Part shown: positions 3,386 through 61,235 of the stretch, in pieces | Position numbering within the stretch: position 1 is the first letter of the stretch | Layout: each line of letters opens with the position of its first letter | DNA from: Scatophagus argus | Lineage: Eukaryota; Chordata; Actinopteri; Scatophagidae | Direction: 5' to 3' | Assembly (NCBI RefSeq): GCF_020382885.2 | Contig: NC_058510.1 | Location: 3,964,862-4,028,861, forward strand | Length of the DNA: 64,000 bases | Notes under the pieces: model-generated | What the model saw: only the letters and a program-made list of their open reading frames with translations | Told to the model about the DNA's origin: nothing | The model's database searches: none | Translations under genes and position numbers: made by a program

Positions 3386-3458
3386 TCCATCATGCATTTT
3401 ATGAGTGTGTTTCTGTCCTCCCCAGATCTCTGGGATGAGTCATACATTAGCCAGAGCA

Positions 3459-3462
<4 letters not shown>

Positions 3463-3502
<40 letters not shown>

Positions 3503-3507
3503 GTGCG
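3463..3507. repeat. (GT)n microsatellite
   Basis: An uninterrupted GT dinucleotide run of about 22 units abuts the decayed LINE copy. It passes through several long open frames, which are artefacts. Confidence 0.95.
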
Positions 3508-4527
3508 CGCGCCAGTGGACTGCGGTGTGTCTATCTCAGGGAATAGATTCAGAGCCAAAGGCAGAGAGAGAAATAGTGACACTGTGAAAGTGCTATTAGA
3601 GACAGATGATTGTAGCCCTGAGGAAGCTTGTAAAGGACACGTACATCAGTACCACTCTGAAATTCTGATTCCTCTTATCTCTTTTTTTTTATTCCCCTGG
3701 CCTCTCTTGCTCTCTTCTCTCTGTCCACACAAATTTAACACGTCGCTCCCTGTGGGTGCTGTCAATTATTTCACACAGGCTTTAAGTCAGGCTGCCATTT
3801 CAAGGTGTAATGGTTTAATTCTGAGACTTCGAGGCATGATGGCTGCTAGTTATTTGCATTCAGAAGCCGTTTCTCAGGTTTGTGCTTTTGTTTTGAAACC
3901 TTCTTTCACTTCAAACACACACTGACCCTCAAGATGGAGCAGGGAGCCATTCTCAGCAGGACACGGCATGAATCCACTGCTTTTGTAAAGAGAGAAATAA
4001 AGAAAACGTTTGTCTGCCATTTATAGAGCTCACTTACTTAAAAAGTCTGAATACAAATTTGGATATTTTTTGCATACAAATGTGGATTCAGAATCCATCT
4101 GAATGTGCACCATGGGTCCTGAATACACATTTGCAGATTACTCTACGCATTCATAAATCTGAGTATACATTTAGAGATTCTTTTACGAATTTACAAATCT
4201 GATTACAGTAGTAGTACAGTCAATATGGTAGAGTAGTCTGAGTGTCATTACTGCTGACTGTTTTTCCAAAATGTGGATGAAAACACGAAGTTCACTCCTT
4301 CCTTCCAGGCAGCTGCTGGTTCGATATCTTTTGTGTTGTGACCTTCGGACAGACGTCCTCACTCTGATTAAAGAGATGACGAACCCTGATGTTGGATGAG
4401 GCTGATAGCACAGAGTCATTTACTCTCTTATCTCTCCAGATGACTACTGTCTCTATGCTAATTCTCTAATCTCTGTGATCGCAGTGTGCCTTTAAATCGA
4501 GGTGGACTTACCTGTACGTGGCTACTG

Positions 4528-24172: not shown

Positions 24173-24791
24173 GACAAATTATTAGTCAGCTTTGCATGAT
24201 TCAATGGATCAGTCAATTTGATCTTTAAATGTGGCACCAGATGGAAAAACACACAAAGCAGCAACGCCATAACTTCCTTCGTCACAGTCTCTCCAGCAAA
24301 AAGCTCTTCATTCAGGTCCAGTGTATTTTAACATTTTTCAACACAATTAGACACTATGTCTGACAGTGCAGTGTCAAGCTGCTCGTGTAAACTACATTTC
24401 ATTCAGTAAACATACACCAAGTCAAAATTTCCTACTCAACAAAATTAGAAAAGGATAAAAAATGACAACAAAACTTGGTTGGGTATGTTTTTCATTATGT
24501 GACTGAGGTGACCGCAGGAACTGATGGTCTACAGTATGAGGTTTATGAGGTCACAGTATTTGGGTTTGTGTGAATCACGTAACAAATGATCGGCAGATTT
24601 TTAGACTCCTCTCCAAAGTTTGTGAGTGGGAGACTGAGCTCAACTCAGTGTCTTTCAGTTTGAAAACTACAGGAAGTCCATTTCCATCTAAATTCAAACA
24701 TGAATACACAAAGTTTCTCAGACCTGTATCGGCCCAAACCACTCTGGACCTTCACTTTGCCTGTGTGTTTTCGATAAGTCCTTGTAATTGA

Positions 24792-37123: not shown

Positions 37124-40100
37124 ATGGCTTCGGCGAGCAGCATTGCCGCATCTATTGCGAGCAAAACGAAGACCAAGAAAAAGCACTTCGTTGCTCAGAA
37201 AGTGAAGCTCTTCCGTGCCAGCGACCCTCTGCTCAGCGTGGTTATGTGGGGAGTCAACCATTCGGTGAGTCAAACCATCTAATGTCTTTATGATGACCCA
37301 CACTTCTGTCTTCCCCGACCCTTTGATGTGCCACATTACGTCTCAGTTGCTGTCAGCTATCAGCCTTTGTGTTATTGCAAGCGGTTGACGAATGCGAGGT
37401 GACAGCTGGCCAGCCGTTTGCTACAGGGCTGTCAGTGTAAATATGTGACTGGTTGCAAATTTGCAAAAACTGTTTCAGCAAATCATTGTTTATTTTTGCT
37501 TTAGTAAGCTCTGTACAGTTACAGTTTTTGCATTATACGTGCATGATTTCAGAGTAAGCCCACAAGTGTGTGTGTGTCTGTCTGTCAGTGTGCGTGTAAA
37601 TGTGTGTGTGTTTGAGCAGTGAACTCTTCTTTGGCTTCCTGTTGTGCACATGTAGGATAAGCTCCGAGGGCCCTGTGTCATGAAAGATCTTCCCATGCAA
37701 GACAGCTTATCTGCTCTCTGCTCTGTTTCTCTTCCTTTGCTGAATATTTGCACTGGGCCAACACTCATATGTTTAATAGAGAGCAAACTTGGTTAACAGA
37801 GGGCACACAAATATTTCTGAAACCAAATCCCAAGTGTTAAACCTTTTATCAGTGTTTTACACAAATTATTATAACACAAAAAGATGGTGCTTGATCGGTG
37901 GAGTAAGTAAGGCATATAATTCAGAGTACTTTAAGTTCCTTTGCTCTTGCAGTTTTATTATCGATATACTGGTGAAACCTTTCCTCAGCTTGCTTGTGAT
38001 AATCATACCCTGGTTATTACAGTTAAGCCAGCCTGTTTACTGAACATTTTATCAGGTGTTTTAGATTGAGGAGAACTGCTTTCCACAGTGTAAACAAAAG
38101 AGCTGAGGAGTAAGTGAGCAGAAGCACTCATTTGTTCCTTCAGTCCATAAATGTCTGTTTATGCATTAGTATGAAATTGTTCCCATGCAGTAGTTAGTAG
38201 TGTAAAAGATCACATGAGGAAATAGTAAAACATTTTGGTACTTTGATACAGAGTGTTGCTTTGCTTTCAGATTTCTCTTTAGTTTTTCTGTCTGTGATTG
38301 TCTTGGGCAAGTATTGGAGGCAACTACTTTTTTGAGGATACTGTTTTATTTTACTTCACTAAATTTACTTGCTAATTTCAGTTGCTAGTTACTTTGCATA
38401 TTCAGATTTAGACTGTAACATGTAACCAATCAGATAATGTTGTGTGAGCTATATTGACTGAAACTGCAAAGTCGTAACTTTGTAACAAAATGGCCACTGG
38501 AAACACCACTGCTAAAGTCATTTATTACAAGATTGCCTGTCAGTTTCCCCTAGTCAACTTCCTATATGCTATGTCCAACATATTTTTTTATCTTTCAGTT
38601 TGTAACTTCTCATTCTCTTTTCTGATGAAGTTTTGTTTGTCTTCACATGATATTACGATTGTTCCCTTGGTGGTTTTTGGAAAATACACTAGCGGTTTAT
38701 GCACAGATAATAAGGTTATTTTGTTTAACGTCATATCTCGGTATTGGGAATCCTCAGGTCCTTGATGGAGGGTAAAAGAAACTAAAGATGTTAGCTTTAA
38801 CAGTTTAGGCAGGGGCATTTCTTTTTGGGCCTAGTGATAAGGGTAACAGTTTAGCATGGATTATGCAGCCTCTAGATAGACTGATGTGGGGCCAAGACAG
38901 CTAAAGATCCAAAGCACTTATTCTGTATCTAAGCTGTAGTCTGTCGATTACAGTCACCTGGCTTTGGCATTAAGTCTGAGCATGTGAAGGTGAAGAAAGG
39001 TACACAAGAGGTTCACGTCCATGCACCTATGCAGTATTGCTTAATTGTTCACTTTTGGAATGTCACTTAAAATCTCAGAAAAAGATGAACAGTGATACAT
39101 TGTCCACTCACTTTAGCTGATACCATCATCAGGAATGATATGTCATTTATCATCTATATGTCAGCTAGATTGTCTTCCAAGAAGGCACACAAAATTCTTC
39201 CCTTTAATGGTGTGGTTACTGCAGTCTGTGTTAAGACTTAACTCGAAGGTCTTCATCCAAAGTTAAATGGATTCATATTATTTAGATCATCTATTTATAG
39301 ATTTCATGAATGTCCAAATGAGTGAGTAGTCGTAAACTTTCCCTGTCTACAGGGTTTTTGAAATTTTGGTGATCTTCCAAAGACGCTTTAGCCAGCACTA
39401 AAGGAAAATCACCATTGCCAGAGTGGTAAGAAGTGAGAATGAAGATAACAATTCGCGTCCTCTCCAAGCAATTATTCAATTTTAAATAGAAAATCAATTA
39501 AAATGAGCTTTTTAATTTTGATCATCAATCAATTCTCTCGTACTTTTCCCCTCAAAATCACACCTACTTGTGCGCTTCTGAAGAAAAAAACAGGAATAGA
39601 TTTCAGAGATAACTGCACCATACAGCTACACTACCAAGTACTTATGCTGTGCACATGAAGATGATCGACTTACTTGTACCAGAAGTAACTCTGACAGCAC
39701 ATGAAATGTTGATGGTTTATTTTCTTTTTGAGAGATTTTTAATCGATTTACTAAGGAGGTTTTATTCAGAACAGATTTGAGAAACCATGCTTTGCAACAG
39801 GCTGAATACCTATCAATCTATATTTTACCAGATCTAACTATATGCAGACCTGTCATGCTTACTATTGCATGTAGAAGGATGAACTCTTCATATCTAATCA
39901 TGACTATCACCTCTTATCAATGAACCTGTTTAATTAAGAAATATTCCAAAAAACTTTCCCAGTCTTTTGTTGCCCCTGTACCAACTTGTTTGAAATGTGT
40001 TGCTGGCACCGAATTCAAAATAAGGATGTACTTACAAAAACGAAGGAAGTGGAGCAGGTAAAGCTTTAAATGTATTGACTTTGTAGTGTTGTAGTGCAAA

Positions 40101-43100
40101 TTATTACCTTCGGTCTTATGTTTTACACAGCGTCCCAACTTTTTTGGAATCTAGACTGTACGTGTTCAAACTGTTCTTGGATTGCATAACACAATACAGA
40201 GCTGCCGATGGCACATTTCCTTATGCCTTAGGCTACCTCCCATGCTGTTTTTCTAATTACTTCATAGGGTACTCTGTTTTTCATACCACTGGCAATGTAA
40301 AAATGACATTCACTGCCAGGTCGCCCAGTTGAGTTCCTGCCAGAGGCTGTGAAGACTGTAGGTTGGAAGTGTTACCAGCATGGAGTTTGCAAAAGTAACC
40401 TAAACCTGTAAAAACGTGACACTGCAAAGGAATGAATACCCGTTCTTGAGAAAGCAACCAAACTACAGTTAACATGGACGCGTTCTGCAAAATATAACCC
40501 CCACCCCTTACACCAGCTGTGGCCTGTCAGTCAGATGCATCAACTTAGGCTTGTCCTGAAAACCAGGCTCATTAAAGTGTTATTGCTCTAGAAGCACAAT
40601 TCTTAAATGACTGAACCGGCTACGTTGGAATGGAGCCTTGTTGATAAGGTAATCTAGACAGTAAAGAAGAGCCACAGATAATGCCTCTCTGTTTGTCAAC
40701 TGAAGCAAAGATATTATGTAGAATGAGTCAGATGGAGTGATAGGATACATCAAAATAAAGCAAACATGAATGTGGCTCAGGACATTCAGTGTAAGCCATC
40801 ACAATCATCCAAGGCTAAGAAAAGCCAACAATATATGTTTTGAGGTTTCTTTGTGTGGCAAAAGGTGTGTAGCGGCTTACTTTAATCCTGATACTTCCTA
40901 TTTTACCTACATCCCTCAGAGCCTGAATAGGTTACATACATACATGCTCAAGATTCTACAGAAATGGACTGTGGTCAAAGCTATAATTTTTTTTTCCAAT
41001 GGAAATCTCAGCTTAGTAGGTGTAAAAGCTCAAACAAACTACAGTCCACAAAATCGGTCTAAAACTAACAATCGCAAAATTTTGATTGGACTTCCCCAGT
41101 GTATGTTCTGTAAACGAGTGCCTTTCCCTCTGTACTTTATGCTTGTGAAAGTAGCCTACTGCTTCACTTCATGTCAGTCTGAGAGGAATTACTGTGTGCA
41201 CGTGCTGGATATGTGCTGACATGAACAGAATAGACACAAAGCACAATTATTGCCCACAAGATATGAAAGAACATTATCTTGGTTGTGTCCTGTGATATCC
41301 TATATATTCTTCATGAATGTAGTAGCTTTCATATGCAAGTATAAACCCTGTAAATCTTGGCTCTTAAATACATCAACACTCTTATTGTGTTTGGCCCTGA
41401 AAGTAAAATCATTTTAAAAAAAGACAAAACTTAGGGTATAGGAATTAATTCATGGTCCATTTATGGTTGTGAAAGAAAAAAAGCCATCATGATGAAACAG
41501 CTGCAGTGGGTGAATGTTGCAAAACAACCATAGGAACACTAACCCTTTTAAAGTCAATGTGTTCACCTTTTGGATCAAACATGTGAGGACAACACTGACT
41601 ATTTTGGGTTTGTTGGCAATAATTCAGGTCCTAACTAACACTGACATGTACGTTTAAAGAATGTTTCCATGTCCTGAACACCTTGTGACAGTACTTTTGT
41701 CTCTGCATTGGAAACTGGATCAAAATTTACTCCTTCACCTTCACATTTGTGAATCTGTAAATGGGATACAGTCCTGGCTTAGGTTAAGTGATTGTTCTCT
41801 TACGATCCCTTTTAATCAAGGGTAAATGATATCACTGATGTTGAAAATGTAAAGGTGTCACAATATGCTTTATTATTGTTTTGTTTTTTGTTTTTTTTGA
41901 GTGAATTTGTCACTGGCTGGAAAGCTGTGTTGTCACAGTGTGAGACACCCACTGTGTAACCATAGCTCTGAGTTCAGCAGCTCCTAACCTGAATGTCACC
42001 TGTTTAACTTTTTATTATCAGACATTTCGCTAACTTTTGTTCCCAAGGTGTGCTCCTAAATAAAAAGCATATGGAAAAAACGTTAAAGAAACACAGAGTT
42101 GATTAACAGACAGTTTGCTATATAAATATTTATACTGTCCATGTGTAGACAATATACAGTATTTCTGTATTTGGGTGGTCCCAAAACCTTATGGTGTGGG
42201 CCTTGACAACTTTGGACCAAGATGCTGAATCCATAAAGTACATCATTAAATTTTAGGTTGAAGACTTATGCGTTGTAAGGGTTAGAGTAAGCCAGTGGTT
42301 TGAGTTTGGGTAAGTCTCCTGGATCCTTAACCTGAATTAAGTATGTGTAGTGTAGACTGCAGCTACTATGTTATTTTGGTAGTTTCAATAACAAATTCAC
42401 ATATTACGATGTGGTAATATGTTCAAAGCTATAAAATTAGTCATCATCAATCAAATACTAAACATGATAAGTAAAATGTTAGAATTTATGTCCTCAGTCA
42501 GTAAACATGTACATAGAATACATACACACAGAACAGAATAGGATAAAAATTAAATAAAGTAATATACACGGTTATTTACAAATACACATGAACACCCAGG
42601 AGTCATTATTTTAATTTGCATCTGGCTGAATGTAATAAACAACAACAAGGTAGTGACAATAATATGGCATTATATATAGCATTGTTATGTATAATACTCA
42701 GCTAATTAGCGGCCCAGAAAAACTGCTCTGAAATCAATTTTTCGTCACAACCCAAAGTTTGGGAAAAGCTGATTTAGGCAACTTATGCAAGTCTGTTCTT
42801 CCTTTTTGTTTTGAGCTTCCTTAAGTTTTACTTTTTTATTTTTCTGAGTGTCTCCCTTTGTTACACTCTTGCAGTGCCTCCCTTAAACTCTGCACGTCTT
42901 GCAGGTTCATTCACTATTTTTGTCATTGTCCCTCTTTGTCATCCTGTCTAGCTGGCTTACTTTCCCCTCTTTCTCCCAGTTTTTTTCTCTTTGTGTCTCA
43001 GACTAGCTGTGTCTGCTTCTGTGCATTGCATAAGAGGGGATGCTATAAATATCTGCAGGAGTGACCTACAGCTAATATGTGTGATGATTATGGGTGAGGA

Positions 43101-46100
43101 AAACAGAAAAGCTGGAGCCTTACTTCCTGGCTCCCAGAGGCAATGACAAACCAAAGAGAAACTTGTAGGAAGCATCGTCTTGTGGTTTTGTCCGAGTGTG
43201 CGTCTCCAGAAACCTCTAACCATTTTCTTTTTTGTTTGCTCCTGCTTGCGTTCAAACATGCCTGCACGTGCCTATTATGTGTGTGTGTGTGTTTATGTGT
43301 GTCCTTCGCTACGAGTCACTATGCGGTGGCACACTCCTTGCGTAAATGCCCCGCGACATGTTGCTCAGCGGCTTGATTCAACCAACAGGACAGGTCGTAT
43401 ACCATAAGCCTGTTTGTTGCTCAGTCAGTCTAAACCACTATATCCTTTAATATCTGGCCTTTCACAGCACTGACTTCACACACATCACACTTGCTGAGCT
43501 GTCTGCATGGGTGTATGTGTTGAAGACAGCTATAATTTATGTGTTTCAACATAGGTAGGAGCATGTCTGTTGTAAATAGGTGCTGACATTGATTATAGAA
43601 GTTGCTGACATTGTATAATATTTGTGTTAATTATATGCTGGAACATAGGTTTTTTTAAGCCCTGGAGTGTGTGTGTGTGACTGAGTGCCTGACATTAACT
43701 AAAATAAACTTGAACGAGCTGTTAGTGTCTGATGTGAATGCAGATGTCTCTTTTAATTTCATCACAAACATCTTAGTGAGGTAGGTGGTTCTATTCATCC
43801 AAGGTCCCGTCTCTGTCTCACTAGCACCTGTACACACTTTGCAGCAGTCATTTTACCTTGTCACTGCTCCACTTTTATCAGCTGAGTGACCTCGTAATGT
43901 CTGACCTCTCCATGCTGTTGTTGTTAGCAGCAGGAGGAAAGGGAGTAAGGGCTACCTCTGGCACTGAAGTTGTCAATGTTGATACACACACCCAGATACT
44001 ACTAGTGTTTTCCACCCAAAAGGGCTTGAGTTGGATCCTAAAATAATCTGTATTCATCTTTATGTTGTATTGTTAAAATTGCTAAATGATATAAATAGTT
44101 CTGTCTGGGATTTATAAATGATCAGATGATGATGTAATAGCCTTGTTAAATGGTCAGTGAAAGGTCAGGTGCACAGTCTGTACAATCTACCACAGCTGTA
44201 GGTAACCTTTTGTTTTGCACTATCGGACCGTTAAAGGTCAAATGTCCAGTCCTTCAGCAGGGTGTGTCTGTAGTTCGCCTGTCCCAAATACCTTTAGAAG
44301 AAAATTCAGTGGGAATCCGCCCAAGATTCCAAGAGTCACTTTTTAGATCATGTGTCCTATTTCCCTTTACATCATTGACAGCTGTAACATCAGACATAGT
44401 GACTGATGTTTTTAAAGCTTTTCCCAACTCTCATATGTTTCAGTTATTGCATAAACTGAAAAACTCCAGTTTTGTTAACTCCTGCTACGTACAAGGCAAA
44501 ATTGCAGGAGCAGAGGGAAACCGCAAGCTATATACCTTTTACAAAATTACAGGACTGTAGACTCAAGATTGTAATGGGACAAAACCCCTGACAAAAACAG
44601 TCCAGTCCAACCATTTGTTGTTTTGTAAAGTTAGATTTGGACCCAAGAGTAAGATATGATAATCTTAAAGTGGATTGAGAGTAGGGTTGTATTATACTTG
44701 TCATGGCTTAAAGATTTTTAAATTATGGAATACAATTACAGTGTCAGTTGAAGCACATACTGATTTTTGACTGATTGTCTTCTTACACTTGTGGCTGGTG
44801 TGTGGCATGGTAGAATTATGGCTTGTAGAATGAGAAAGATACATGTGGTATAGTTATTCGGGATCCAGTAAAGGCTTGTTCATATATTGATAACAGTGAA
44901 ATCACAACATTGTGAACAAGAGAAGAGTTGAATACAAAGTAGAAAAAACAGCCACTAGTTTTAAATATATCAGTGGGACATGCAAGCATTGGGTTTAAAA
45001 ATGGTCTCAAAATTTCACATGTTTTTGTTGACTTTTGGCAGAAATATGTATATATAATATTGTGTAAATAAAGATTGTATCAGGCAGATGACTGAAGATA
45101 TTGATATTGAAGGACTGGTGGGAATGGTGACAAAAATATAATCACTGACCTTTGCTAAGGAAAATTTCAAGAGGAACTTGACAGAATTGCCACATCACTA
45201 TACATTGACTTTATACATTGGTGAGTGGTGACACATTCAGGTTGTAGCTTGCAAGTCAGTAACTGAGTTAGAAATGAGAAAAGATAAGAAAGATGATAAT
45301 CATAGCTTTTCTGTTTATTGTGAAATGCCTCCCCGCAGGCCACACATCCTGATGGCATGTCTCATTAGTCATCCTTCATTCCTTTCTGACTTTGGGAGAG
45401 GTTTCTATCCATTCTGATATTTTCATTATCCTTGTATTTCTTGTGCTAATGAAACAATCCAGTCATTTGTATTATTAGATCCATATTTCTTTGCCAAGAG
45501 AAATGTGTTTGACTGCTGTCAACACTATCAATGAGCTGTCTAATGCCTTTTCTGTCTGTCATTGTTCAGAGAGATAAGGCAATGCCATGCTGCTGACAGT
45601 GCACGCTCTCTTCACCAACTTCCTGTCCAATGGAGAAACAGCACACACTTGCTTCACTCTAGGCCGGAAAACCAGTCTGTATCACCATGGAGACAAACAG
45701 GAAGTGGTAGTGTGAAATTTGTCTGCAAGTTTGATAACTGCAGGAAGATAAGCAGATATGCTCAAGGCATCTGATTAAACAAACACCAGAACCTAACTAT
45801 GCTCAAGATGGAAATTATGTCAAGTGTTTAGCAGATAGAGAAGTAGTACTACAAAGGTTATTTAACATGGATTAGGTTCTCCAAGGGATTGTTAGGTTGA
45901 TATAATAGATTAGCCACACTTCAATGTAGGCCCTCTTTAAAACATTTAGCACCAGGGCAACACCGTGTTAAAATCAGTGCCTACCCCCCGACAAAAAATG
46001 GTACATAACATTGACTGTCAAAAGTGTGGCCTGTGAAAATAGCCCAAGGTACAGTAGTCGTTCTCACTCAGACTCTTTCATGCACTCTTCACAGTTTTTA

Positions 46101-49100
46101 GAATAGCATGTATTTAATCACAGTAAGAGGAATATTTGCCACTTAACAGTAACAGTGGAAACGTGGGTGTAGGAGTAGAATTTGGAATATTTCAAACTGA
46201 TGCAGATTGTTTTCTGAGTCTGCTCAAGGGAACCATTCATACCTGTTTCTTAACAGATAATCCCATAGCATTTTTATGGGTACAGTTATGTGTCAGTAAT
46301 TTCTGTTTGTTGCTATAAATTTCATTAGGGTTAATGTTCAGTACTATAGGGTCCTCACAGATATGCATGTGTGCTTGGGAAGGTCAGGCATTGTCTCTGC
46401 CCTAATGTGAAACACAGCCTTGTTGATGAGGCGACATCTCCCCGCTGAGTACCCAGGATTCATCTGTGCTGTGGTGTCACTGTGACGTCTGTGCCTGTCA
46501 CACAAGGGCACTGAAATATACTTGGATATGGCATCTGTTGTCTTCTGTTTGCTCTGTCTCTTGAACACCCTCCTCTCCATATTTTTTTCTCATGCTTTCT
46601 TGTTCATGCTTTTCAGATGTTTTCAACTCAAAGGTTTCCTTCCTAAAAATACTCTCCTGCTAATGATGCACACTGAGGCTGTGTTCACATGCTTCTTCTC
46701 TTTTCTTTTGCTTAAAAAGCTTACATTAATCCTAGAGGAAATTTAAAGTTTATGGATTTTCAGTGTTGTAACTCTCACTGACAGTAAGATAACATCAGAG
46801 TGCTATATGCAGCTTGAAGAACAGCTTCTTCTGTTCTTGAAAAGCTATTGTGCTCAATTTGTGCATGTTTGCGTAAGTGCTTTAAGGCAGGTTGGAATAG
46901 TGCACAACCAAAGGCAGGCTTTCTCCCATCACTGGACATGCTTTTGCAGACATCGTCATGAAGATTTGTTTTTCATTTGACCAGTAAAGCAAAACATTAT
47001 ATCATTAATGAGTCCTCATAACAAACAGTTTAAAGAAATTCTTTGAATATATTATGTGCTTTACAACACATAGCTTTTACAATATGTTGGTCTGGTAAAT
47101 CTTCAGTTTGTCTGATAGGACATTTTCAGCTAAACTGCTTTGCCAACACACTGGCTACTTGCTGCCAGCTCTTGCCTTGGGCAGTTTGTGCTTTTAAAAG
47201 TGAGCAAAACAAAGCGGACCATTAATGTTGCTAATTTCCCAAATAAATCCTGTAGTAGGCTACTTCTATATTTATTCTGCCCCATTTGTGCTGCCATCTC
47301 CACTACTGTCAACTTTCTGAGTACAGACTCATTTACCTGGTCACAAAAATTGCATCAGACATAAAAGTGGGTCAGTGGAAAAGGAGAAAGACACAGATGA
47401 CACACCCCACAACTGAGAGAGAATTTAGCCACAAAACTTATGCTTATCCTGACTGAGCAGTTCATTCATCTAAGTCAATCCTTAATGTTTAAACTCTAGT
47501 TCTAAATACAGGAATCTCTAATTTAAGAGGCCACAGGATCAAGTAGTCTTCTGAGGTCAACCTGCTAATCATAATCAGTCTGTTGGCATAAGTTAGGTGT
47601 GATCATCCAATTTAAAGACTTAACCGTGCGTTGTATTGGTGTTAGTCTAAAATAAAGTCATGGGAATTAATGTTATGAACATGTTTAAGCTACATTGTCT
47701 TAAAAAGCGTACTTCCTTATGGCCACCTGAAATATGCCAAACACTTTCATGGGTTAGTCAGTCATGCTGAGGCCATTCTCTGCACCATCTGCTGTAATAC
47801 TCAGCCACACTCAATCCTCAATGGTAAAAAATATTCTTCAAAGGCAGCTGCTGGAATTGTGATATGACCCCACCTCTTGTCTGTCTGCACAGTATGTCTG
47901 TGAGCAATGTATAAAGTTTGAAGTAAATCTGGGAATGTACTGTAGAAGAGCATACACACACTCGCTCCTTCACATGTTTTGTGGTTAATTTTCTATTTGG
48001 TCAAAGTTGAGTGTTTGAGATTATTCAGTCGCACCAACATTATAAGTGTGCTTTGTGGAATGACAGGTTATTAATAGATTCATGCAACCTGCCAACACTG
48101 CCTGCAGCCAACAATACATACACTAGCGTGCACACACACACACGCACACATCATATTTGTATCAAGCTGTGTCTGAGTCATAACAAATGTCATGTCCACG
48201 TAATACAGCAATGTGACGCATGGCCAGTTTCAAATGGAAACTCCTGCAATGTACCTTATGTGTTTGAAGCCCTGCTGTTTATTCAGTGCACAAGGTTTAT
48301 TGAAGCCTTCTGTACCTGACCATAAATGTACAATCATTCATAATCGTTTAAATGTTAACAGTCTAACACAACTGATAGAACTCAATGTCTAGTTTAATTA
48401 TTGTCATACTTAAGACTCAGATATTTCATATGACATTTTGAAAATATAATCACTTTAGAAACTCAAAGTACACTTCAGAGGTTCTTTCATTTGAAAGGTT
48501 TCCTAACACAGCCTTAATTGTGTTGATTTGTTTGCGACAAGTAATCTATCTGAAAAGAGTAATGTGAGCGCACTAAAAAAATGAGTGCTCCTTTGTAGTT
48601 TACGACAAAGTCACCATTTAATTTTAAAAATGCATTTCAACATGCACATCGAGGGAAGTGCAGATGAGGTTAAATGTCATCACACATAGAATGAGAAGTG
48701 AATATCTGCTCTTGAATTGTGAAGACACTCAACTGGAAGATTAGGAAATAGCAGTGCATCACATACTGCATGATATTAAGATTATCATCTTTGCAGGAGT
48801 GACTCATAACTTTAACTTTCACTCATACATACATATGATGTCTCTTTGTCTCTCCTCTCTAACCTGCAAGTCCTCATCTTGTCTTTATCTGTACATGGAA
48901 GACACCTTGAAGCTGCAGTATGTACATTCGTTTGTGCCCTACAGCTGTCCTTCAACCCTGTCAGCTACAGCGTCTTGAAAATCTAATCTGTAAACTGCTC
49001 ACATCACCAGGTGTTCTGTGTGCCAGAAATCAGTACTGATCGAGTACCTGCACCAGAGTATTTGACCTGAATCGTAAATTAGCCCTAATAGCTTGTCATC

Positions 49101-52100
49101 AGGTTGCTGTGATTTTGGAGAAAACATCTTCAGGTGCCAGTTCATCTTTGTGGCTGTTATGGTTGGCTACTCAGTTATCTGAGGTGGTTAACAAAGGAAA
49201 AGTGACATTAATTTATTAATTTTTCTTCTTACCTAAAGTTTTATTATCATTATTTTATTATTTATTTAAGGTGTACAGGCCCATAAACATATATTGAGTG
49301 GCATCTTGGCCAACTCTTTCTCCCTTTTACCAGTTCCAGAACCAAATGCTTATTTATATGTGTTTGCCATCTGTTATTGAACATGTTTTTAGAGGCAGGG
49401 TGTAATGCTGTGAAGACTCATGTGAAGTTATGGGCGTGCAGATCTTTCCACCAGTCTGTGGCACTTCACTGGCTCGGATAATATTGGATCATAAAAAAGG
49501 TTACATGAGTTGAGTGTGAAGTTCACAGCTAGCTGGTTGAACATCTATAGAATTCCTGTCACAACATTTAATGCCATCGTCACATGTAATAGTAAACATA
49601 TAAGGGAAACTATAATTGCTGCATACCTTCACTACAAGGCTTATATCAAGTGAAGTAAATGTTTTTTCCTATGTTTTGTTTTTCTTCTCAGATAAATGAG
49701 TTGAGCCATGTTCAGATTCCCATCATGCTCATGCCAGATGACTTCAAGGCCTATTCTAAGATCAAAGTGGACAACCACCTCTTCAACAAGTAAGGTCTTT
49801 TGAAGTATAGAACTGTTTAATTTAAGAACAGTGATAACACTGGAATGTGTAATTTTCATAATTCTCTGATATATTCTTTAGGACCTACAGCATCTCATCA
49901 ACTGTATCACGGGTGTTTTCTGATCTTTGTATACACACAGGGAGAATATGCCCAGCCATTTCAAGTTCAAGGAGTACTGTCCTCTTGTGTTTCGAAACCT
50001 CAGAGAGCGGTTTGGCATCGATGATCAGGACTTCTTGGTATGAAAAGCCTGGCAACTTTACCACCACTTATGAGTCAGATGTGCAGTTTGTTTTGTCATC
50101 TTTTTATTACTAGATAAGTGTGACTTGTCACATAAGAGAGCGCCAGCTCTTATAGATAGCTGGATGATTTTACAGGCAGCAGGTCAACCTGAAATGCATC
50201 TTAATCTTATCCATCTAGTAAAGTAACCACCTGATGCAACAGACACTTGAACAAATTTGACCATGAGCTTAACTATTAAACTGTCACTCTGTTGTGCTTT
50301 TTCCTTTCCTTCATTTGTTTCATCCAAGTCTTTCTCTTCTTTTGCTTCCCACTCTTTCCTAGTAAATCCCCATTCCCAGTGCAGGCAATGAGTTGGCAGT
50401 ATTTGGAGGTCGTTGTGTCCCAGCTCAGTGCAGCTGTCCTTCTCACATGTTTACATTAGGGTTCGGCTGGCTGCAGTGAGTGGGCAGTTGGGGGTGTTAA
50501 GACACTGGCCAGTGCGAAGGAATGTCATGACATTCTCAGCACAAAACTCCTTTCCTTCATGAGGCATTAGTCACATTGTGGTCTAAAAGGGTTACTGGTT
50601 TTGATTTTTTTTTCCTCTTTGCCCTTGCTCTAAATATATTGTTTATGTTATATTGGTAATATTCCCCATTGCCGACAAGGGGCGTCACCAGCTGCAGGCC
50701 TTCTATTTTGATGAAACACAGCAGTGTTGCTTTTAATGAGCAGTTCTAGCAAAATTGAATTAAGTTTGGGAGGGTAGCTGAAGTGCAAGCAGATCAGCTT
50801 TTTTGCTCACATTATGATGAGTGCACAGTGGAGAAAATTACTAACTAAATCAAACACATTAGAATATTAACTAAAGCTTTTCATCTATGCCAGCCTCAGA
50901 TGAAGGTCCTCTTTAACATTTTCAGCCTGTGAGACAAACCACTTCAATGTTACACGGGGATTGTAGCTATCCCTCTATGTCTCCCTGCTATTTTAACTTC
51001 CAGAAACAAGACTGCAACCATTTTTAGTTCTAAACACCAAAAGAAATGCTGCTTAACAGTTTTAGGATGCACCTTAAAGGTTAGTGCTCACTTTGCAATC
51101 CAAGCAGAAGATGCTATGATTGGAAGAGGGTAGTGAGGGCAGAGGACATGAGGAATTCTTGGAGAATGAGGCATTGAGCCAGGGGTGTTGGATCATGTTA
51201 CTTTTGAGTTCCAAAGTCTGGGCAGCAGCTGTTTGTGTCTGAGTGTAGGTTTAGACAGGCAGCGGGCATAGGGGTCAGAACCCCACATGTTTAGACTGGA
51301 GAGTGGGAGGTGGTCAGACAACAAGGAGCTAGATGCAGAACATGCTGTATTGTGGGACTCATTCAAATACACAACAAGATCAGTCAACAGGGAGTATATA
51401 GTTACACCGCTATCTGTTTGAAGTTCAAATGGGTTCTGACTCATAGTTGAACAGCTACTTTTAAAAAATGTTTCCAGTATTTAGTTACAAACCTTCAGAC
51501 AAGTAAAACACATGTAATAAACACGTCTTGGGTCTCTGAACGCACTGTGCGAGTTATGCATGTGCAAAACTTGACTTTGCAAAAAGTCAAGATGACGAGA
51601 TAATCATGTCTCAGTGTGTACATAAACATGGTCGTCATTTGGCCTTTCTGTCTTTGCTCTGTGTGTTTGCAGAACTCACTGACGCGCAGTGCTCCCTTGA
51701 ACAGTGAGGCCCAGGGACGGAGCGGGGCCCGCTTCCACACCTCTTATGACAAACGCTACGTCATCAAGACCATCAGCAGCGAGGACGTTGCAGAGATGCA
51801 TAACATTCTAAAGAAATATCATCAGGTGATAACAGCCTAGCAGCCAGTAATATACTGTATATAAATACAAGCCTCGATTCTTCCCAAAGACAGGCTTTCA
51901 TGTGCCTGTGGTAGACTCAAAATAACTCATAAACAGATTTTGACTAAAGCCTGTCACTGAAACAAACAGCAATCTCCTTGTGGGGGCCACAGCACTTTAG
52001 AGAGGCTATTGTTTGCTCTTGTTCTCTGAAAGAGCCTGTTCAAAGAGGGACTGCTTTACTAAACTATTTATTTGTACCCTTTTGTCTGCCTGCATGACAA

Positions 52101-55100
52101 ACAGGCCTACGCACACAAGTCAAGCACTTTTTCACCCAGTGCTCTGTGGCATAGTGTCAACGTTAATGATGCAATTTTACAACTTTTGCTCTGCCTATTG
52201 ATTTTGGGTTGGTCGATAAATGTCACAAACAGCCAGGGTACAGGTTCATACAATTACCCAGGACAGCTATTGCAGTAGATTAGAGCCCTCTTGTCTGTTT
52301 ATCACACTACTGTTGAACACAGAGTGACACTAAATCATAAAGGGATCATGCTGTGTTTTATAGACCTTATTTTCTCTATTTCCCACAGTCTTCCCTCTTA
52401 ACGTACACAGTAAACATACATTGTGACTACAAAAGGGCCATCATTTGATATCCCTTTCTCTCTTTTATTAGTTCATTGTGGAGTGCCATGGCAACACACT
52501 GCTGCCTCAGTTTCTGGGGATGTACCGACTCACCGTGGATGGAGATGAGACCTACATGATTGTTACTCGCAATGTCTTCTCTCACCGGCTTTCTGTCTAC
52601 AAAAAATATGATCTCAAGGTAAGAGGGGAAAGCAAATAAAGAGAAAAACAGGAAGCACGGAAATTGATCATGTTGCACTGATCATCTGAGCTTTTGGAAC
52701 AAGAATAAAAAGCACTGTTTCTCCTATAATTGTACAGGTCTAGATTGACCACTGAACAAAAATATAAATTCTTTATTTTGAAATTGTAACTTTTAACAGC
52801 TATATGCTGCAGAGCAGAGGAGAGACATAAAGTGAACATAGCGTTTCTCAAGTCGACAACAACTTAGAGCCTGTTTTACGGTTGATATGTTTCATAAAAG
52901 CTCATGTACAAGACAGGCTTCTAAAAAGGTCATGTATTAGTATCCCTAAAGAAGGTCAAGTGAGGTGTTGACTTTATGTTAAGATACAGCCAAACATGTT
53001 TAAACATGCACCGGGGTAATATGTGTATGTAGGTTGGTGAGGGGAAAACTAGTGCTTTCAGTAACAGCTAGGTTATGAAGAGTTATTTCTTTCCTTTGTT
53101 TCTAGGGTTCCACTGTGGCAAGAGAGGCCAGCGACAAGGAGAAGGTACAGTCACCCGTCGTGAGCCAGCATCCACTGTTAGTCATACCCACACAACTTAA
53201 ACTTAAGCACAGGCTGAACCTCTTAACCCTTAGTGTATACTTAAAAGAAATAACAATAATGATTAGAAACATGTCAAAAATTGACAGACACGTCAGAAAA
53301 ATCAAGACAATCTACCCGGCGTCTCTTCGTCTTTAAAGTGGAATATTTCAGTTGTTTGTCCCTCGTCTGTCTCGCAGAACTGATATGATACAGGTTTATC
53401 AATCCACATCGACACCATGTTGTTGCAAGTCAGTACGCAAGCCGCATTTTAATAACTGTTACATTTGTATTTAGTGAAATAATCTCCCACTTTCTACATG
53501 TTGTGGAGTAAATGAAACAATCGAGCCAGTAGATATCAACAATGACCATTTGTACTGCCTTTCACGTAGCTTCCTTGAAAATTATTTTTGTCCGCTGGAC
53601 AGGCCACTGTCCTTACAGCACAACAGGAGGTACGTTGCTGAAAGGGACAGTTGGCTCGGATGACAGTGGAGGTCGGAGTCTGTGTGGATTGAACAGATGG
53701 ATACAAAGCAGTAAAGTGCTGCTGATGTCTCGTTTCTAGTGTCATATCCATCTACGGTACAAGGACATTATAAAGTATTCAGAAACTGTACATTTTATTT
53801 ACAAATACACTAAATATGAAACTTAGCATTGTCTGTCTTTCAAGTAATTTAACCGCTGACACCATGCACTGAAAATTAGTCAGTTATTCTGAATGAACTC
53901 TATGAACTCCATGAATATTAAAAGCCATGTGGACAATGATAGAATGAGAGAGAGAACAAACTGGGTTTCCAGTGGTTTCAATAACTAGTACAGCTTCAAA
54001 CTATTCCAAGCTCACTGTCATCACCCAAATGGATCAATGAACACAACTTTGGTGTCAGCTTTTGTTTGCCTTTGGGTCAGGATGACAGTAGCAAATATCC
54101 ATCTCCTTCAGTTAGCACCTGCTTCATCACCCCATTCCCTGCCTATTCCCTGCACGCTATTTGTGTCTCTTTAATTTGCTTCATCCCCTCTAACCTCGCT
54201 TCTGCTCTTCCCTGCTTGCTGTCTGTGTGTGAAAGATTGAGAGCTGTGTGTGTGTGTGTTGGGTTTACAGTTGTATTCAGTCACATGTCTCATGGTGACT
54301 AGTCCTGTGTGTGTTATGTTTTCTGTGTATATGTGTGTCTGACTGTGTGTGTGAGAGCAGTATATATGAGCAATTGACAAGTGATTGACTGTGAGGGAAA
54401 TGCTGCTGTTTGTGAGGGTCTGGCTTTTTGAGTTTTTGGCTTTTGGCTGCTTGGACAGAGTCACTTGTGAGAAGTGAATTGTGTCACTGAAATTCCAATG
54501 GACCCGATGGTCTGCTGTGCTTCCCATTAAAACTCTACCAGATATATACATTTTATTTTTATAGTCAAAAGGCTTTGAGCTCTTGATTGATGATACCGGT
54601 AGTTGCTGACAGTGTCCTTGAATACAGTGACTTTGGAGCACCTGTTTGTTTGACCTGTCAGCTCAGCAGTATTGGAAGAGGCTGGTTGTCCACAGTGATT
54701 TTTTTCCTCTTTTTTTTTTTTTTCATTGCATGTTTCCACGTGTCGCTCTGCAAAGCTTTGTCTGCCGCGAGCAAGGTTTTTTATATAAGAGTGTCACAGT
54801 TTTGACCCAGAGGGGTTGAACTTTCCACCAGGTTTTTGCAGGGTAAAACCAACCATGGGGCATCATTCAGCGAGGCGTGGAAGACTTCGGGGAATCCCAG
54901 AGCTAAATATAGCTTACTGTAAATGGAAGAAGACGCAAAAGTTATTGGGGTTAAAATGAGTGGAAAAAAAAGCCGCTGAGGATTTAACACACACGAGCCA
55001 GACCTCTGTTTGTCTGCAGCTCTGCTGTGTGTGAAATATCATTTACGGTCCAGCAGTAGAAATTCAGTAGCATTACAGTACATTCTTGCCAAGCTGACAT

Positions 55101-55999
55101 GAGTGTTTTTCCAGAGCTAAGTACCACAGACTCTTAACTCACAAGTTAATGCACGTTGTTGCTATTAGTCTGTGGGGAATCCTGTGGTTGTTTTACATTT
55201 CAATGCAATGTAACTAATACAGTAAGCATTTTACGGTAATTGCCTCCACATGTGAAACCATTCACAGTTATCACTCAGTACATGATCTTACCCATACTTT
55301 TTAAAGTGGATACATGTTCACACCACACTTAAAAATGGTTATAGAGACACAACTAAGGCTCAGTCATCAAACCAGGATCTGACAAGAGACGCACTGAAAC
55401 ATCTTACAAAAAGACGTGTAGAACCGACCTGCAGTTACCCACTGCATGCTTAAAATGAGGAAGAGGGTGCAACATATTCAATTATTTGTTTTGTTCAGAA
55501 GGTACAGTGTGTGCACGAATGTGTGTGTGTAAAAAAGAAAAAGTTACTTCACACATACACACAAACAACAAGCACAGCAAGGTTATTTCCTGTCTGCATG
55601 ACTGTCTCCCTCTCATGCATGTATCTGCATGATATATAATGTTTATTCTGCATTTGTTTTGACGTTACGTTATTTCTAACACATTCTGATGTGTATGAAC
55701 ACCAGCCGCATTCTGTTGCACCTTGTGGACGTGTTCTGTTTTATCCACACATGACATTTTTTTTTTCTTTTTTTTTTTTTCCCCCCCATAAAATAGATTT
55801 TGTTAATCTTACAGCTGCTGCTTCAGGGTTTTGACTGTCAGACAGCAGCAGCGACACATTGCGATGATTGGTACATGATAAGTTTACACATTTTTTTAAA
55901 ATTTGTTTTTATTTTTTTACTTTCAGATTATCTCAACCACAACCTGCTCGAGGTGAATTTGGTCATCAGTTCATACTAGTTACTTTGTTTTACTTTACC

Positions 56000-56030
<31 letters not shown>

Positions 56031-59000
56031 CTGTTTAGGCCACTGGCCCATAATTTAGCAAAGACTGGTGCAGGTAACATGCGCAACTGCAGTATTTGTT
56101 ATGTTGCTTGGAACGTGTAGAGGTTGTGTTTGTATGTTTTTACACAGCTACAGGCCCCACTGGCCCTGGAATGTGGAAAACCACTTGTCTCCATTATGTC
56201 TCCACTCGGTAGCTACATGCTGCAGTTGTTACGTTGTTTTCATTAACTCCCTTCTGTCTGCTCACACCAGCTACAGCTGGTACCTCCGGTGGAGGCGCAT
56301 GACTTTAATGTGACAGGATGACTGAGTGTGAACTGTCCAGTAATTGTAAGCCGTTAGAGGTAGTACCACACCTGAATAGAGGATTGGCCGAACACAGGTT
56401 CATAGAATGGAAATTAGCTTGCCGTTGTTTCCTTGCTCTTCGTAGTTCCAGCTCTTAGCCTCCTTAGTGTAGCGCTGCCAGGTTGCTCTCTTTCTCTACC
56501 AGGCATTTAATACCAGTGTGGGCAGACCAGAGTCAAGCATGCATAGAATATACATTTGAACATTTAGGTATAATTTGTAGGGACGGTAAAAATGATTAAT
56601 GAAGCCATTAGCACAGAACTAGAATAGCAGCAAAAATTATTATACTTATTTATATCGTCATTGGCCGAACCTGTTGAACACAGATAATTTTATTGACCCC
56701 TTCAAAGAATTATAAACACCTAGACTGGATCGTACGGGTCGCTCGCGTTGTTGCCCTTTCCAACCCTCTACCGATCTTTAAAAACAAAACAAAAACAGTT
56801 GTGTTCTGTTACATTTTAAACACTTTGCCTTTACTTCCAACTTCCTTCCTCCCTTCCTCTCTCCTTCCTTCTCTCCTCTCCTCCAACCCTACCATCCCTC
56901 CCTCGCTTCCCCTTTTCTAGCAGCCGCCCCAACCAGAGGATGTGCCCCCGCGGCCCAAATCTGGTAACGTTCAGCAAAGGCTGCAAACACTGCGGATTGC
57001 CACGCGCTTTTACTGCGCCATGAAACACGTAAGAGATGTAAGAGAACCAGGGCTCATATACCAGGCATGATCTATTAAACCAATCTTATTTTATTGTTTT
57101 GTTTTTTTAAAAAAATTTATTTATTTTGTATGGCCGAGTATTTTCGTTTCCTCGTCTTCTCCAAGTTGATAAACTGTTATTTCAAGGCCGCACTAGTTTC
57201 ATCCATTTACAGTCACCTTTTGCTCAACTTGTCAGCCAGTTCAGTTTGATTTATGCCAGTTTGTTTTTGTTCGCACCATTCCTTCAGTGCCACCGTGTGT
57301 CTGAAACACTGGAGAGCAAGAAGTGTTTGACTGCGTGGTAAAAAATAAAAAAATAAGGGAACCAGAGATGGGAAGAGAAGTACGTACTTGTTACATTTCT
57401 GTAAAGATAATTTATTTCTGAGGAAGAGCTGTCTTGCTTTGTTGGTATTGTTATTTCAATACTGAGACTAACTTAAACAAATCTTTCTATGTTCCGCAGT
57501 AGAAACTGAGTATATTTGATATTCTAAATCAGTGGTAAATAGTTCCTTGAGACAATTTCCCAGCTCCATGTCCTGCACTACAGCCTTTGTTTTGTGAAAT
57601 AAAATATATTTGGCTGCGGCTGAGCAGGTGCCACGGGACATTAATTAATAGCTAATCTAAGAGATGAGTCAGGCTTGTTAGATTTTTAGCGTTCGTGCTG
57701 TATAGTATGCACAGCTAATCTTGCTCAAAGGCAGTGCGACTCGTAATGTTTCTTAATAACCGCAGTCTTCTGAAATCAAGCAGTCAGTATTGTTCACAGT
57801 ATCTCCGTTCTTTGTTTCTGGTTGTGCCTGTTATCCAAAAACAGTTCAGCACGTGGCAGTTGTAATATCATAATTTAGATAATCCGATTTCAGTACAGAG
57901 GCCGCAATAGTTGGGTCATGAAACACAAGATGAGCAAGTTGTTTTCACACACAAACAGTTTATTGTGTGTAAACTGCACAATTCAGACAAATTCTGCCAC
58001 TGTTCGTTACAGTGGGAGCTCATAATTTACAAGCTGCTTATCACTCATGTGAAACCTGCTGGTGGATGTTAATATATGCTCATCAGTAGGAATGTAACTA
58101 CATACAGAGGCTCCAAGTGTTAGCATACAAGAAATCCTACAGAAAGACAAAAGTTTTGTCCCTCTTAAGACAGCAGGACATCGCTTCCGTCCAACGCCAA
58201 GATCCACTTTCCAGGTGGCTGACAGGAGACCAAAAAGAAACGACATTCATTTTTTTTCAGTAAGGGGAGAAATTCACCTGTCACACAGCCTTACAAGGCT
58301 CACTGGTGTCGCACTCTTTCTTCTTGCCTCTGATATATCTTTCTGTTTTTCTGCTCACTACCTCAGTGTAGTGAACCACTCAGCAGTCAGACACATTTCT
58401 TTGCAGTCATTGTAACAGAGAGAATCAACAGCAGGCCAACTGATAGAATCCCACGCATGACTGGGAGAAGTTATAAGATGTATTGAAGCGTTTAGAGAAT
58501 AAACGGCAGCTAAAAATGAAAGAGTAGAACGATGGATGAGTGTGAGAGCGGAGGTGTCAGTTTAGGCGACAGGCCTGCGAAATGCTTTCACTCTTTGCAG
58601 TTGCGTCCTCATTAACTTTTTTATGTCTCATCTATATCCAGTCTAGCAGGTTGTACATCCCATATCTGTTGCAAATTGGAGGTCTATGTCTGTATATATA
58701 TATATATATATATGTGCTCTAATACTGTGCTATGTATTTGTGTCTTAATCTGTGTAAAGGCCTAATCTGTATGTGTATGTACGTATGTGTCGGTGTCTGC
58801 TGCCCAATCTCATTCTGGTGCTACAAAGTGTTGTGTTGCTGCTCTTCTCCTGCTGCCATAGAAACACTGTACTATCTAGACTGCTGCTGCTGCTTCTGCC
58901 GCTGCCGCCCCGTTACCACATTTCCTGCTCTCATTTTCCTCAGTGACTCAGAACTAGGCCCGCGTTCCTCCTCACACATCAATTCTTCCCCCTACAGGCT

Positions 59001-61235
59001 GCTGGCAGTTCTGCAGCAGCCAGGTTGTGAAGGAATTCTGCTTGTAGGCTGAATAGGCGAAATCCGTCACAAAGATGCAGTACGCTGGCTTACAGAGTTA
59101 TAAAAAGAAGTTTATATTCGATGCAAACCACAGTTCGGTTTCTGAGAAGCATCTTGGAATGTTGGTATGATTTGTCTCAGGGAGGGATGTTTTTTGGAGA
59201 CCAGCACAGTGCCAACGAGGACGTTTCATGGCTTTCAGCTGGATGTCCTCTTCTTTCGTGACACAAAGTGTATGGATCTACCAGATGCATTTAAAAAGCT
59301 TTGCAGTCGACCACAAAAAAATGCCCTTTGTTTCATGGTACCAAGAAGTAATCACATTTCACTGTAAACAATATGAAGAACCCGTGCATCAAATGGATCT
59401 GTGCCCCGCTGTCAGCATGCTGCATGTATTGTTTCACACGGTCCAATCACTTCTCTTGAAAAGAGGTCGGCCTTGGTTTGGAGACTGCCTGTACTTCATT
59501 AACCGAGTCTTTTTACCAGAAGTCTGCATTGTGTTTGGGTGAATCAGACAGGCTTATCTAACAAACCACCGGCTCAAAGCCTCATTTATGTCCAAGGGGT
59601 GTTTCAACATGCAGGGCTGTCTTGTTGTGCAGCTGTGCATTCAAACACACTGCTGACATCATTAATTTCTAAGATTAGAATTAGTCTTTGTCGTCGTGCA
59701 TTTTGAAACACTCCATATCTTATACAAGACAAGATTTATACAAGACAAACAGATCTTCTAGGCCTGTGTAAAGATATGCACAGTATATTAAATTCTTAAT
59801 GTTTTGAATATTCTGGGTTAAAAGGATGATTAACACTGATACTGGTGTTTACTTACTTGAGTAAATATTTTATTTCATGTCGATTTTTGATCTTTTTATG
59901 TAAAATATCTCAAACGGCATTGATTCAAACTAGGTGTGATTGGATGGAGTGACATTTATGGACACTCTCTCGTCTTCTAAAATAGAAATTGACACTTGAT
60001 ATGAACACCAGAATTCTGTCACATTTTTACCCAGGTCAGCCGTCAACAGTGCCATGCCTCTCAGGTTTGAGTCTTAGTGTTGTGGTTTTGACTGTTGTTT
60101 GTCTGGTCGCTAATCTCCAATACTAACGGGCAGGCCAAGGAGCTGCCCACCTACAAGGACAATGACTTCATCAATGATGGGCAGAAGATCTACATTGATG
60201 AGGAGAACAAGAAAATGTTCCTGGAGAAGCTCAGGAAAGATGTGGAGGTATGGCATAACAGTCATGACTGAAAAAGTCAAGTCTTTTTGGAAAAGCCCAC
60301 CCCTTCACCCCTTTCTGTTTGTATTAATACATGTCTTCTTTTTCCACTCTCTCAACTTGCTCCTTCTTTCTACTCTGTAACACCTCCCTCCTCCTTAAAC
60401 TTCCAATTCTCCTTACTTGCTTTTATTTCGCATTTTGTCTTACCCTCCTCCATCGTCCTCAGTTCCTGGCCCAGCTGAAGCTCATGGACTACAGCCTGCT
60501 GGTGGGGATCCACGATGTGGAGCGAGCCGAGCAAGAAGACGTGGAGAGTGAGGAAAATGAAGCCGAAGAGGAGGGCGAGAGTGACGGAGGGGGCATCGGC
60601 ACGCCCCCCGACAGTCCCAGCAACACGCTGGACAGCGCCAAGCCTCTGTCGCCTGGGGAGTTTGACCCCGCCATTGACGTCTATGCCATTAAAAGCAATG
60701 AAAGTGAGCAAATGCATGTGTTTTTCAGGCTTGTATGCAGTCTGAGGGTTGTATTCAACAGCTAAATAATAAACTCTGTATTGAGAGCTCCCCCTGCTGG
60801 TTATTGTAGTTATCATTCCCTTTGTTAAACCTGCTGCTGCTGTCAAATATGTCTCTTTTTGTTTACTCTTATTTAACAGTATCTGATTTTGCCTGAGGAC
60901 ACTTTTGCAAACATGTAGATTCTTATACCGGGTGCACTTGTTTCAAACTCCAGCTGCTCCCAGGAAGGAGGTGTACTTCATGGCTGTCATAGACATCCTT
61001 CAGCATTACGATGCCAAGAAGAAAGCTGCCCACGCCGCCAAGACTGTCAAACATGGGGTATGTAGCTGCATACGTATGATGACACTGATGAGGAAAACCT
61101 GACCAGACAATCGCAGTGCATGCGGTGACTGACAGTGAGTGTGTCCCCCTGCAGGCCGGAGCGGAGATCTCCACGGTGAACCCAGAGCAGTACTCCAAGA
61201 GGTTTTATGATTTCATCACCACTATCCTGTCATAG
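37124..61235 (+). CDS. pip4k2a: Phosphatidylinositol 5-phosphate 4-kinase type-2 alpha
   Basis: This lipid kinase makes PI(4,5)P2 from PI5P at internal membranes and in the cytosol. Ten exons splice in frame to 404 residues (human 406): 37124-37264, 49692-49789, 49941-50037, 51673-51825, 52472-52618, 53106-53144, 60134-60247, 60463-60703, 60954-61057 and 61155-61235. The start codon has good context (aaagATGG) and opens [20 protein letters not shown]. Exon 5 ends and exon 6 begins in DLKGS (210-214). [11 protein letters not shown] at 271-281 is the catalytic loop. An acidic insert ([17 protein letters not shown]) follows. [20 protein letters not shown] is the substrate-specifying activation loop; Ala in GAGAE is typical of type 2 kinases. 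Residue 112 (QDFL) is Leu where I recall Gln in human. Introns 1 and 6 are large; intron 6 contains a candidate extra exon. Confidence 0.96.
37265..49691 (+). other. pip4k2a: pip4k2a intron 1
   Basis: This 12.4-kb intron is AT-rich, with few repeats compared with the rest of the window. It contains a Tc1/mariner remnant near 39945-40160 and short TG runs (43278-43292). The longest open frames (40770-41219 and 44150-44560) have no family likeness or splice context that I can support. First introns often carry enhancers, but I see no motif cluster to name. Confidence 0.6.
39945..40160 (+). mobile_element. Tc1/mariner transposon 3'-end remnant
   Basis: The segment contains cccctgtaccaacttgtttg, atgtgttgctggcac and, at the end, acacagcgtcccaacttttt. 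These resemble in order the 3' end of a Tc1/mariner family common in fish genomes. No transposase coding or left end is visible. Confidence 0.55.
56006..56030. repeat. (A)25 run
   Basis: Uninterrupted A run after TATAT. A retroposon tail is possible, but no element is recognised to its left. Confidence 0.9.
56921..57028 (+). other. pip4k2a: Candidate unannotated cassette exon in pip4k2a intron 6
   Basis: About 90 bases of nearly pure pyrimidine lead to TTTTCTAG, followed by 108 bases open in the pip4k2a frame and then the strong donor GTAAGA. The junctions on both sides (exon 6 to exon 7) are phase 0, so inclusion would add 36 residues after K225: a Pro-rich start ([15 protein letters not shown]) then a basic/aromatic part ([12 protein letters not shown]). 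The acceptor is a TAG-CAG tandem (3-base choice). A second donor GTAAGA nine bases downstream would add three residues. The block is GC- and CpG-richer than its flanks. I do not recognise the peptide. The site is a loop of the kinase fold after DLKGS, so tolerance of an insert is plausible. Confidence 0.5.
58693..58712. repeat. (TA)n microsatellite
   Basis: About ten TA units in pip4k2a intron 6. Confidence 0.9.

Follow-up and report, generated by a model that had tools for sequence, protein, structure and literature searches.

To our knowledge, the control and substrate choice of the PIP4K lipid kinases are not settled. The PIP kinases possess, after the inter-lobe linker, a subdomain carrying the DLKGS motif that has no equivalent in protein kinases; in the available portion of a structural report (PMC4570271), it is the region of greatest difference between the type I and type II structures compared. 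The same portion places this subdomain near the specificity loop, raises the possibility that the two act jointly on substrate binding, and describes a pairing of Arg-224 with Asp-228 in the DLKGS subdomain of PIP4K2B (PMC4570271). There is also a precedent for splicing in the PIP4K2A kinase domain changing the enzyme's partners: in the accessible part of another study (PMC10837360), exon 5 skipping (SLC27A5-IGF2BP3) is reported to change p85 binding and localization.

The locus considered here lies in a 64,000-nucleotide stretch of Scatophagus argus DNA (hereafter "the window"; all positions refer to it). An earlier note on this DNA had proposed that intron 6 of pip4k2a holds an in-frame cassette exon with tandem splice sites on both sides. 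By tblastn and splice-site assembly, the gene was laid out as follows:

37124..61235, forward strand: complete pip4k2a coding gene, with 10 constitutive coding exons
37124-37264, forward strand: exon 1
49692-49789, forward strand: exon 2
49941-50037, forward strand: exon 3
51673-51825, forward strand: exon 4
52472-52618, forward strand: exon 5
53106-53144, forward strand: exon 6, the cassette's upstream neighbor, ending in phase 0
53145-60133, forward strand: intron 6, 6,989 b, phase 0
60134-60247, forward strand: exon 7, the cassette's downstream neighbor
60463-60703, forward strand: exon 8
60954-61057, forward strand: exon 9
61155-61235, forward strand: exon 10

Joined without the cassette, the ten exons encode an uninterrupted protein of 404 amino acids. 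The best match, the kinase motifs and the ordered exons identify the gene as PIP4K2A (type II alpha PIP kinase), and PIP4K2A also gave the best matches in the PDB for exons 7 and 8. Constitutive exon 6 spans just 39 nt and has a weak donor (0.3 bits), the acceptor of exon 7 is very poor (-1.3 bits), and these two sites, which flank the cassette, are outscored by the donors and acceptors of the cassette itself. A domain scan of ten frames in the window revealed two further coding regions before pip4k2a, both on the opposite strand: a frame with a SelR domain (24755-25279, E 2.7e-7), belonging to an msrb-like gene, and an armc3-like frame with an EDR1/CTR1/ARMC3 peptidase-like domain (28420-28995, E 2.9e-17).

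The elements of the candidate exon are these:

56823..56920, forward strand: polypyrimidine tract of the cassette acceptor, with its terminal TAG at 56918-56920
56918..56923, forward strand: tandem acceptor TAGCAG; the exon would start at 56921 or 56924, i.e. with or without one Gln
56921..57028, forward strand: predicted cassette exon in its shorter-donor form; 108 b, 36 codons, open in phase 0
56969..57028, forward strand: codons of a 20-residue core, the most conserved part (20/20 identical in five euteleosts)
57029..57037, forward strand: optional Val-Arg-Asp extension, three codons between the donors; VRD+ and VRD- isoforms occur in relatives
57029..57046, forward strand: 9-nt tandem duplication with two GTAAGA donors (57029 and 57038), GTAAGAGAT/GTAAGAGAA

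All of the elements that had been claimed for this intron (the pyrimidine tract, the TAG-CAG acceptors, the 108 open bases in phase 0 and the two GTAAGA donors) were found in place. Positions 56826-56920 are 88% C/T, and the tract lies in the window's only run, counting both strands, of at least 80 nt with a pyrimidine content of at least 90%. The double acceptor has the context CTAG/CAG/CCG. Every combination of sites keeps the reading frame, as had been stated: inclusion of 108, 105, 117 or 114 bases gives proteins of 440, 439, 443 and 442 residues, respectively, with no stop other than the natural one, and the frame is likewise kept on skipping. These four in-frame combinations are not independent coincidences, since the donors derive from a 9-nt tandem duplication and the acceptors lie 3 b apart.

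Splice-site strength was scored with simple consensus matrices. On this scale, the cassette acceptors (6.8 and 6.1 bits) and donors (2.7 and 2.4 bits) fall within the range of the nine real pip4k2a introns, whose acceptors span -1.3 to 12.4 bits and whose donors span 0.3 to 6.8 bits. Seven acceptors and seven donors in intron 6 score at least as well as the weaker of the block's sites. They form five acceptor-donor pairs at a spacing of 60-200 b, four of which are open and in frame, all from the cassette block. When the intron was shuffled with its dinucleotides preserved, at least one open pair arose in 12 of 300 shuffles and four in none (mean, 0.04 open pairs). By themselves, the splice-site statistics make the block a fair candidate, and no more. 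Elsewhere in the window, two further acceptor/donor pairs that are open and in frame and match those of the cassette in strength were encountered, at 3426-3524 on the forward strand and at 46688-46762 in reverse-complement numbering; both are candidates.

The base composition bore out only half of what had been said of it. The cassette is indeed GC-richer than its flanks (0.593 vs. about 0.40 in the remainder of intron 6). Its observed/expected CpG ratio (0.87) exceeds that of the window (0.38), but the 221 b directly upstream reach 0.93; CpG thus does not single out the exon. A GCATG, an RBFOX-like core, stands at 57065, 27 nt beyond the second donor, and the 200 nt before the exon hold three matches of the TCTT/CTCTCT/TTCTCT type. 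Because these motifs are short, and because GCATG occurs 76 times on the forward strand of the window, we make no claim regarding splicing factors.

Relatives were searched for the insert itself. The query was built from the 39 residues predicted for the insert and one adjoining Lys, and the candidates had been picked by whole-protein length. Of 63 candidates, 62 matched (best E, 3.8e-18); all 62 have the PIP5K Pfam domain and ray-finned fish names, many are labeled isoform X1 to X6, and the matches spanning the whole query are 83-100% identical to it. A search with the skipped form added 75 proteins, taken from the best 120 of 4860 matches, for a set of 137; most of these relatives' proteins are predicted database models. 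The junction of exons 6 and 7 could be parsed in 124 of the 137: 64 carry a homologous insert, 51 carry none and 9 carry an unrelated insert. Two of the 64 (Caranx P0018 and Merluccius P0031) have extra residues beside the insert. The core motif occurs somewhere in the protein in 71 of the 137.

Unrelated inserts at this junction appear in kin of the carps, catfishes, characins and knifefishes (P0079, P0081, P0082, P0089, P0093, P0095, P0099, P0100 and P0102) and in Gasterosteus P0068; they look like retained intron or ad hoc exons. Some models among the insert carriers (Caranx, Merluccius and Sparus) are odd. From these cases it is evident that single predictions at this junction can be wrong, but errors made independently would not yield one and the same peptide across models. 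In Pseudoliparis P0001 and Mugilogobius P0016, the cassette is joined to other downstream sequence without exon 7, possibly representing truncated products.

What settles the exon question is that many fishes have a homologous insert at this very junction. We therefore consider that 56921-57037 is, with high probability, a real cassette exon of pip4k2a, subject to alternative splicing and present since the early ray-finned fishes. The long pyrimidine tract and the moderate sites may make the exon optional, and the tandem acceptor and duplicated donor would yield four sub-forms.

Both included and skipped products of what appears to be one gene were found at the level of database proteins. In Scleropages, the models P0091 and P0085, one with and one without the insert, agree at 404/404 aligned residues and, besides the insert, have one separate small difference; those of Oreochromis niloticus (P0062 and P0078), both of which lack exon 6, are identical over 405/405. 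The Anabas pair (P0006 and P0069) comes close, with 391/393. The pairs from Oncorhynchus mykiss (392/401) and Oncorhynchus kisutch (393/401) also differ outside the insert; they may represent duplicate genes and were not counted as evidence for skipping. Scleropages also has a second model without the insert, P0106, which agrees with P0091 at only 360/404 aligned residues and apparently derives from a second pip4k2a gene; pip4k2aa and pip4k2ab copies are mentioned in the available text of PMC8297816.

The tandem sites are also reflected in the relatives' models, in which both acceptors and both donors are used. The proposal of an in-frame exon with tandem sites on either side was thus borne out by the homologous insert at the same junction and by its Q and VRD variants. 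Among the 64 inserts, the ends were Q..VRD in 33, P..VRD in 13, P..KH in 7, Q..KH in 5 and other in 6; hence, all four Q/VRD combinations predicted from the tandem sites occur. Pairs that are identical except for the Q exist in seven species (Gadus macrocephalus, Syngnathus acus, Osmerus, Salmo salar, Oncorhynchus gorbuscha, O. masou and Scleropages), so that the acceptor-pair isoforms are found in Scleropages as well as in euteleosts. Pairs that are identical except for VRD exist in three (Syngnathus acus, S. typhle and Vanacampus). The Q pair from Salvelinus fontinalis differs elsewhere (428/440) and may stem from two genes.

The carriers of the insert include Polypterus, Erpetoichthys, Huso, Lepisosteus, Anguilla, Scleropages, Brienomyrus, Esox, salmonids, Osmerus, gadids and many percomorphs. 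Among the cluster representatives in the matches listed, it is present in 0 of 31 carp-catfish-herring entries (none of them from zebrafish) and in 0 of 8 entries from lobe-fins, tetrapods and cartilaginous fishes. A search with a sturgeon-like query recovered Huso, Lepisosteus, Erpetoichthys and Polypterus (4/4 candidates); it reached no tetrapods, a silence that carries little weight because eel and arowana were missed as well. The simplest history would be a gain of the exon on the ray-finned stem followed by its loss in the carp-catfish-herring lineage.

Constraint on the insert is uneven. The 20 residues that end the 108-base form make up the core, which is identical at 20/20 positions in Epinephelus, Gadus, Esox, Salvelinus and Osmerus, while the remainder of the protein is 95-97% identical in these same five euteleosts. 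Core identity drops in other lineages: eel and arowana share 15/20 residues, gar 12/20, sturgeon 10/20 and bichir 10/18. The Pro-rich half of the insert is variable. In ten aligned inserts, seven columns (L, Q, T, A, R, F and Y) are invariant. The conservation of the core speaks for coding constraint. Among the models compared, the VRD extension occurs in euteleosts only and is lacking in eight insert-bearing proteins (eel, arowana, elephantfish, gar, sturgeon and bichirs); the duplicated donor therefore seems younger than the exon.

Where would the insert sit in the enzyme? The earlier note had put it close to the ATP-binding core; going by the available portion of PMC4570271, a more apt description of its position is the PIPK-specific DLKGS subdomain, close to the specificity loop. 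The insert appears to enter three residues past what we take to be the matching Asp (D-K-E-K, then the insert). Structure prediction with AlphaFold2 on the peptide alone gave coil for residues 1-14 and helix for residues 15-38, with a mean pLDDT of 93 for residues 21-30 and 77 overall; for the full-length plus-exon isoform, the mean pLDDT was 32, probably for want of diverse sequences. The core has a net charge of +4. Its helical hydrophobic moment, 0.22, was not above that of its shuffled composition (53% of 2000 shuffles were as high or higher), and the corresponding values for the cores of eel, gar and bichir were 25%, 49% and 12%; an amphipathic membrane helix is thus unsupported by this measure. 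Pfam has no family for the 49-residue ORF of the insert, and no PDB chain matched the insert, either by single sequence or by a 10-sequence profile. A DUF6479 match in the Epinephelus protein (E 0.12) was under its cut-off and was disregarded.

Taken together with the position of the insert, these features suggest a possible role, which we put forward tentatively and as somewhat short of probable: inclusion would add to the DLKGS subdomain a flexible, Pro-rich linker followed by a basic helix, tuning lipid-substrate or membrane engagement or docking a partner. In such a mechanism, the linker and helix would enter near the specificity loop, three residues after the Arg-pairing Asp, and no residue of the enzyme would be removed. 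The tethered helix might then influence how the lipid substrate or the membrane is engaged, or it might recruit a partner. The fuller proposal, to which we attach slightly less confidence still, is that a basic helix, tethered by a Pro-rich stretch next to the specificity loop of PIP4K2A, constitutes a splice-controlled module with four length settings, kept through most of ray-finned history and lost in the carp-catfish-herring lineage. If this were true, the module would act as a natural switch, setting either the substrate access of the PI5P 4-kinase or its choice of partner.

The main rival to the tethered-helix reading accepts the exon as real and conserved and holds that inclusion mainly lowers or abolishes kinase activity, giving a regulated off-form. 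The location of the insert lends this some weight: in an alignment of 45 PIP4K2A sequences, the insertion point splits an invariant stretch of the catalytic domain (DKEK, then K..PT.KDNDFIN), and inclusion could thus weaken the enzyme. Moreover, the R-D pairing in the turn at the insertion point is among the differences between type I and type II structures in the available part of PMC4570271. However, the C-terminal half of the insert is strictly conserved in euteleosts, more so than disruption alone would appear to call for, and on balance we regard an off-form as rather unlikely, although less so than the two explanations that follow.

Conserved non-coding DNA, such as an enhancer or a splicing decoy, might have been misread as an exon by gene predictors. 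High GC and CpG inside an AT-rich intron would suit such an element, as would the predominance of predictions among the relatives' proteins. Against it, the length changes among ten aligned inserts comprise whole codons, and many of the substitutions are conservative (L/I/V, R/K and M/I/V); the Q and VRD variants, furthermore, agree with the tandem splice sites. We thus consider this explanation very improbable.

A chance pseudoexon, i.e. ordinary intron resembling an exon, is negligibly probable: chance can produce a low-complexity tract rich in pyrimidines as well as common GTAAG motifs, and some shuffled introns did contain an open pair, but entries from bichir to percomorphs share a homologous insert at this junction, which in our view rules it out at the protein level, and the absence of four open pairs from every shuffle also stands against it. 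A repeat or mobile element was likewise rejected, as 56921-57040 has no second match longer than 13 nt within the window. No Rfam family reached its gathering score in the block, and ARAGORN found no tRNA there. In a set of viral contigs, the core pattern had no matches, and the 80 stretches that fit peptide patterns included no relative.

The exon had been described as unannotated. It is not new to databases, because it is present in public gene models, namely the relatives' predicted isoforms at NCBI and UniProt; yet no published description was found among the matches listed in open-licence literature on the gene, its isoforms or the peptide, and no paper was found for the peptide string itself. 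The available part of PMC6523245 makes no mention of the insert. The cassette is a conserved optional exon in a known kinase, predicted in databases and, as far as we searched, unstudied. Zebrafish belongs to the carp-catfish-herring lineage; the absence of the exon from the entries seen of that lineage and of tetrapods would explain this lack of study. The plus- and minus-exon forms offer a natural protein pair with which the role of the DLKGS subdomain in activity, localization or partners can be tested. The case also illustrates that raw sequence allows a cassette exon flanked by tandem splice sites to be recognized correctly.

The closest counterparts of the exon are the predicted ray-finned PIP4K2A isoforms X1 to X6 at NCBI and UniProt, which are database models; isoform X1 of Epinephelus fuscoguttatus, for example, has an identical 39-residue insert at the same junction of the same gene. 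As with the human and mouse PIP4K2A-L and PIP4K2A-S forms covered in the accessible part of PMC10837360, alternative splicing here affects the catalytic region of the same gene. The events differ: in PIP4K2A-S, constitutive exon 5 (51 residues there) is removed, whereas the fish event adds an exon between exons 6 and 7, a cassette that none of the four tetrapod entries among the matches listed contains. The 3-nt acceptor shift and the 9-nt donor shift resemble the short, in-frame tandem sites described in the available portion of Hiller et al. 2008 (PMC2279118); in contrast to the sites described there, both kinds flank one optional exon in pip4k2a.
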